64,000 bases of DNA from Candidatus Saccharimonadota bacterium (GTDB lineage Bacteria > Patescibacteriota > Saccharimonadia > Saccharimonadales > Saccharimonadaceae), in assembly GCA_017432425.1 (NCBI GenBank), contig JAFRJE010000002.1:62001-126000 (forward strand), read 5' to 3'. Shown one piece after another: positions 51,874-52,500 of this stretch. The notes under the pieces are model-generated. The model saw only the letters and a program-made list of their open reading frames with translations, was not told the DNA's origin and did not search any database. Numbering within the stretch: the first letter of the stretch is position 1; the number at the start of each line of letters is the position of its first letter. Made by a program: the position numbers and the translations under genes.

Positions 51874-51905
51874 AAAAAGGGGCGTCGAAGAAAGGAAAAC
51901 GCCCC
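51874..51905 (-). terminator. Terminator of the pilin gene
   Basis: On the minus strand a 7-bp stem GGGGCGT / ACGCCCC (51879-51885, 51899-51905) is followed by T5. It makes the pilin gene monocistronic. Confidence 0.75.
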
Positions 51906-51916
51906 CGGACAACAAA

Positions 51917-52387: not shown

Positions 52388-52421
52388 AGTGTACCCCCCC
52401 CCCCCCCGACCATTTTGTCAA
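52388..52421 (-). promoter_or_regulatory. Pilin promoter with a G14 spacer, probable phase-variable switch
   Basis: On the minus strand a consensus TTGACA (52421-52416) and a -10-like TACACT (52393-52388) are separated by 22 nt: AAATGGTC plus fourteen G (C14 on +, 52394-52407). With nine G the spacer would be the optimal 17 nt. The arrangement matches promoter-spacer homopolymer switches such as those of Neisseria porA and opc. Confidence 0.7.
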
Positions 52422-52473: not shown

Positions 52474-52500
52474 AAGGGACGTATCTTACTTACGTCCCTT
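52474..52500 (-). terminator. Terminator of rpmE
   Basis: On the minus strand AGGGACGTA-AGTAAGA-TACGTCCCT is followed by a T-run. The stem has 9 bp. Confidence 0.85.

Follow-up and report, generated by a model that had tools for sequence, protein, structure and literature searches.

A homopolymeric run of 14 guanines, lying between the −35 and −10 hexamers of a pilin gene within a 64,000 nt stretch of the genome of a very small, parasitic member of the Saccharibacteria (the window), is probably a phase-variable promoter tract through which slippage would switch expression of that pilin. The initial annotation had proposed as much, and the suggestion gains support from comparative evidence: recurrence of the design, a spread of spacer lengths where tract-free promoters are fixed at about 17 nt, differences in G number between related promoters, and the lack of MutS and MutL in the genomes searched. 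Mechanistically, the spacer of this sigma-70-type promoter would contain a contingency tract, G14, that is prone to slip: replication would add or remove guanines and thereby shift the −35/−10 distance, and such changes would seem to go uncorrected, neither MutS nor MutL having been found. If the RNA polymerase of this lineage works best at a spacer of approximately 17 nt, G8–G10 alleles (16–18 nt) would be ON, whereas the allele seen here, G14 with its 22-nt spacer, is predicted to be OFF or weak. The outcome would be random on/off switching of a single VirB2-like pilin, one instance among the G-tract promoters of the genus, which seemingly drive, for the most part, exported surface proteins. 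We infer that slippage occurs within the population, that it affects transcription, and that it serves host contact or antigenic variation.

The pilin gene and its promoter

Table 1. Features of the pilin locus (positions are those of the window)
Feature	Position	Strand	Basis
VirB2-like T4SS pilin gene, 145 aa	51917..52354	−	PF18895, E 1.1e-15
Pilin start ATG	52354	−	sequence
−10 hexamer TACACT	52388..52393	−	sequence
G14 homopolymer, 3′ part of 22-nt spacer, proposed slippage site	52394..52407	−	sequence
Eight mixed spacer bases, AAATGGTC	52415-52408	−	sequence
−35 hexamer TTGACA, perfect consensus	52416..52421	−	sequence
Intrinsic terminator 3′ of pilin, where the pilin and prfB-like genes converge	51878..51906	−	hairpin
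Intrinsic terminator 3′ of upstream rpmE (L31), parting rpmE from the pilin promoter	52474..52500	−	hairpin

The initial description of this promoter, TTGACA and TACACT set 22 nt apart with G14 between them, proved correct on the sequence in both coordinates and counts, as did its arithmetic, since the eight mixed bases and 14 guanines give 22 nt on the minus strand, whilst nine guanines would give 17 nt. The −10 hexamer is weak, being identical to TATAAT at 4/6 positions, and the same TACACT is also found directly 3′ of a G12 tract at another locus (L065). No sigma-70-like pair with 16–18 nt spacing is present on the same strand of the pilin intergenic region, which leaves the 22-nt pair as the only promoter candidate. 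Most of a leader box that is seen after many tract promoters (described below) is missing from this one. Across both strands of the 64 kb window G14 is the sole G run of at least 9, with six overlapping 9-mers of G counted as against a mean of 0.67 in shuffled sequence (sd 1.03, maximum 4). The G count at this locus rests on one draft assembly, a type of assembly that such tracts often break, and the exact figure of 14 could be off by one or two.

With regard to the gene itself, its product scores 57.8 bits against T4SS_pilin (PF18895), for which the curated cut-off is 26.6, and thus belongs to that family; its N-terminus is a signal-peptide-like segment, and two hydrophobic segments are present. 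No Pfam match to a type IV pilin or N-methylation domain was returned at E 0.1. The protein is a VirB2-like secretion (T4SS) pilin and not a type IV pilus subunit, so that the original designation of pilin holds in the former sense only. The gene had also been described as monocistronic with its own terminator, in agreement with the hairpin-plus-T terminators found on both sides of this one-gene unit: that 3′ of the pilin has a 9-bp stem (−14.9 kcal/mol, z −2.76) and that 3′ of rpmE a 10-bp stem (−14.0 kcal/mol, z −3.38), each followed by a T run.

The neighbours of the pilin are the prfB-like gene and rpmE (product L31, PF01197, E 7.2e-21), with no T4SS or pilin-array cluster around it; the genome's own pilin array sits on contig C1, making the window pilin an orphan copy outside the array. 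Cluster location is frequent but not universal for such genes, a VirB2-like pilin lying near virB4 in 1,135 of 1,948 assemblies according to PMC12102498, and because it is not required for the family, the PF18895 membership of the orphan stands. The window pilin and one of the array pilins on contig C1 share 67% identity over aligned positions, and the window gene may thus be a copy that acquired a switchable promoter. In S. epibionticum the pilins of the T4SS cluster are essential (PMC10633639), and the pilin arrays of Patescibacteria are highly variable (PMC12102498). Taken together, these observations suggest that a switchable extra subunit could alter the surface of the pilus without loss of the machine.

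Recurrence of the tract promoter and the spread of its spacer

A search for TTGAC, 4–30 nt, a run of G7 or more and then TAnnnT retrieved 69 sites, distributed over 45 of 174 genomes of the genus, whilst neither the reversed pattern nor a poly-C version of the original gave a single site in the same 174 genomes. Sampling across the order returned sites in 41 of 393 genomes, nearly all from the window's own family, and across the phylum in 29 of 380; poly-G runs of at least 10 are frequent in the window's genus but less so in the order's other genera. A scan of all bacterial species recovered the same layout in many other phyla, and the architecture is therefore not unique to the Saccharibacteria lineage, whose own matches in that scan came in part from MAGs of ruminant gut and of reactors. 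Promoter consensus also emerges at bases that the search pattern did not specify, with −10 position 5 being A in 64/76 sites and the base after TTGAC being A in 57/76. Amongst 53 genus tracts of at least 9 G, taken without regard to promoters, TAnnnT lies 3′ of the tract in 22 (42%), as against 10 of 226 (4%) G5–7 runs (p 3.5e-11, a value that, like the other given herein, is overstated because the sequences are related by phylogeny and not statistically independent). Only about 60 of the 353 genus tracts of at least 9 G occupy the strict promoter position. The recurring sites look like real promoters, and the pilin switch would be no isolated curiosity but a member of a large group in the lineage.

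Spacer lengths in tract-free promoters provide a calibration. TTGACA/TATAAT pairs of the lineage that have no tract show a 17 nt spacer in 19 of 21 instances, several of which are orthologues, so that the independent cases are fewer. A second, independent promoter set was collected by way of AAGCATAAAGGTYATA, a leader box immediately 3′ of the −10, with guanines not required; of its 37 members with at most three terminal G, 7 have a 16-nt spacer, 22 a 17-nt spacer and 7 an 18-nt spacer (36/37 at 16–18 nt). Tract promoters, in contrast, range from 14 to 26 nt, with a median of 17 and one 35-nt outlier, and carry tracts of 7–19 G; four sites scored at 9 nt possess a second TTGAC at 19 nt. Where the tract is interrupted (L361, L389, L391, L419, L425) the spacers are 16–18 nt, which is what one would see were interruption to lock in an active length. 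The leader box itself starts about 3 nt 3′ of the −10, where transcription is predicted to begin, in exported-protein promoters genus-wide, and is present in 80 of 174 genomes at ≤2 mismatches, with few control matches (L359–L428, e.g. L365 and L404); the genes that follow it encode an N-terminal hydrophobic segment in 41 of 43 proteins.

The number of guanines also differs between closely similar promoters. In one exported-protein family, six promoters from five species harbour G9, 10, 11, 11, 11 and 12 within well-conserved flanks, G number being their main difference, and the G10 copy and one G11 copy are neighbours in a single genome. Tract-free paralogues of the family have a 17 or 18 nt spacer. 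Such variation bears on an alternative in which the tract acts as a fixed element, structural or regulatory (a stiff spacer, a quadruplex-forming strand or a regulator site), whose length is not a switch. The coding strand carries only G and never C, so that the base may matter beyond its being a homopolymer; the runs abut the −10, as the search required but as was also true of 42% of the tracts chosen without it; and TGn, which the guanines partly imitate, precedes the −10 in many strong promoters that lack a tract. However, a fixed element sits poorly with tracts that vary so widely in length, even between nearly identical promoters, and with tract-free relatives of the same promoter class that manage at 16–18 nt, and we consider it unlikely.

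Genes under tract promoters and the origin of the tracts

Tract-driven genes are enriched for exported proteins: an N-terminal hydrophobic segment, a simple proxy for export, occurs in 46 of 71 tract-driven proteins, whose start codons were picked by a rough score, versus 12 of 56 window genes (p 1e-6). Families represented include a weak LRR match, DUF285 with SpaA, and Fib_succ_major, as well as pectate-lyase-like adhesive, papain-type and List_Bact repeat proteins, whilst many other tract-driven proteins have no Pfam match. The window's genome contains six tracts of at least 8 G, of which two are in strict promoter position: one before the pilin, the other on contig C13 before an exported protein whose LRR match is weak.

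A third tract promoter of this genome (TTGAAA, 16 nt, TATAAT; L162:382-1354, G000:C2) precedes an HNH_repeat protein (PF18780, 1.7e-13), and weaker HNH_repeat matches likewise lie 3′ of tract promoters in L106 and L132, these being possibly switchable DNA-binding proteins. Tracts within coding regions were also observed. G10 tracts are found in the signal-peptide region of frames on the minus strand of L035, L036 and L054 (G004, G007 and G048); for the first two the assembled frame ends after approximately 30 codons, where G9 or G12 would read more than 500, and the third is cut by the contig end. Such tracts resemble translational phase variation, alongside the promoter-based kind. A C10 run on the coding strand of a 374-aa frame (L164:1571-1580, G000:C10:7270) is overlapped by a second open frame of 134 aa that extends further, and may frameshift the C-terminus; neither frame has a Pfam match. 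Close to the genome's own pilin array, a partial surface protein (L166:38-673, G000:C1) carries a PNTGFFSHLNEGG segment at its C-terminus together with a hydrophobic helix, and the tract-driven L068 and L100 display similar DTG/NTG segments, a likeness that suggests a common cell-surface anchoring signal.

The tract was also sought at the pilin in related genomes, a check put forward in the initial annotation. None of the 29 best pilin homologues in relatives has a G run of more than 6 upstream, and the pilin as a tract target appears, for this reason, to be species-specific. In those relatives that could be read, the rpmE site holds other genes and no pilin. A pilin switch conserved throughout the genus is rejected on these two results. 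Viral contigs yielded no same-species variant, and a G16 and a G17 tract at contig ends in genome G123, considered as one locus at two lengths, have different downstream bases and represent two loci.

Domains MutS_I and MutL (PF01119) were absent from all 30 genomes searched, including that of the window, with controls found in 11 of 14; a published survey likewise found neither MutS nor MutL in Saccharibacteria (PMC8406219). In another reading the tract slips as a neutral by-product of missing mismatch repair, upstream of a pilin that is a recent and possibly unimportant duplicate of which the expression has no consequence. Compatible with this are the failure to find either protein, the orphan status of a pilin that has no counterpart at the site in readable relatives, and the unfavourable spacer of the observed allele. 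Against it stand the enrichment of tracts at exported-protein promoters and on one strand, and a pilin frame that is intact and retains its PF18895 profile; we assign this explanation a low probability. That the tract arose as an artefact of sequencing or assembly (poly-G called in dark cycles, or a homopolymer counted wrongly) is more improbable still. Two-colour Illumina chemistry is known to produce spurious poly-G, the contigs of some relatives begin or end in poly-G, and two G101 tracts run into scaffold Ns. Against this, unique sequence flanks the tract on both sides, and an artefact is rejected on recurrence at the same promoter position across many genomes, on one strand only, and on flanks conserved in related promoters.

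Phase variation of the pilin promoter remains the preferred reading. Beyond this single gene, we lean slightly towards a wider one, in which the genome-wide G-tract promoters of a lineage of obligate bacterial epibionts with no detectable mismatch repair, along with some coding tracts, are contingency loci for surface adhesins and, in the species of the window, for a T4SS pilin subunit; each population would mix attachment or evasion types that face its bacterial hosts, host defences or phages. Were such a random surface switch to operate, population heterogeneity would be part of how Saccharibacteria choose, keep and change hosts, and any single genome or expression study would capture these bacteria in one phase state only.

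Comparison with known systems

The initial annotation knew of no described phase-variable pilus promoter in this lineage, and a search of the available literature is in accord, having found no report in which homopolymer phase variation is connected with Saccharibacteria or Patescibacteria; the nearest deals with a gene of a Gracilibacterium that has hypervariable repeat arrays (PMC6851277). The pilin is of the same Pfam family as the VirB2-like T4SS pilin arrays of Patescibacteria (PMC12102498; PMC10633639), but unlike the arrays treated in the available text of those papers, which contains no comparable regulation of T4SS pilins, it stands alone between rpmE and a prfB-like gene with its own G-tract promoter. 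A further likeness is to hifA/hifB of Haemophilus influenzae, where, as outlined in PMC3899988, a repeat in the −35/−10 spacer varies the spacing of promoters for an adhesive appendage; that repeat is a TA dinucleotide serving divergent fimbrial genes, whereas the pilin locus has a mononucleotide G run and one gene.

The closest counterpart is porA of Neisseria meningitidis, in which the length of a poly-G tract sets spacer length and transcript level (van der Ende 1995, as described in PMC3899988). As the initial annotation had proposed, the architecture corresponds to porA as described there: a homopolymeric poly-G lies between the −35 and −10 of one surface-protein gene, here the pilin, and the predicted mechanism is, by analogy, of the known porA type. 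The two systems differ in that the present tract belongs to a Saccharibacterium in which neither MutS nor MutL is detectable, in that the gene encodes a VirB2-like pilin, and in that switching here is a prediction from sequence.
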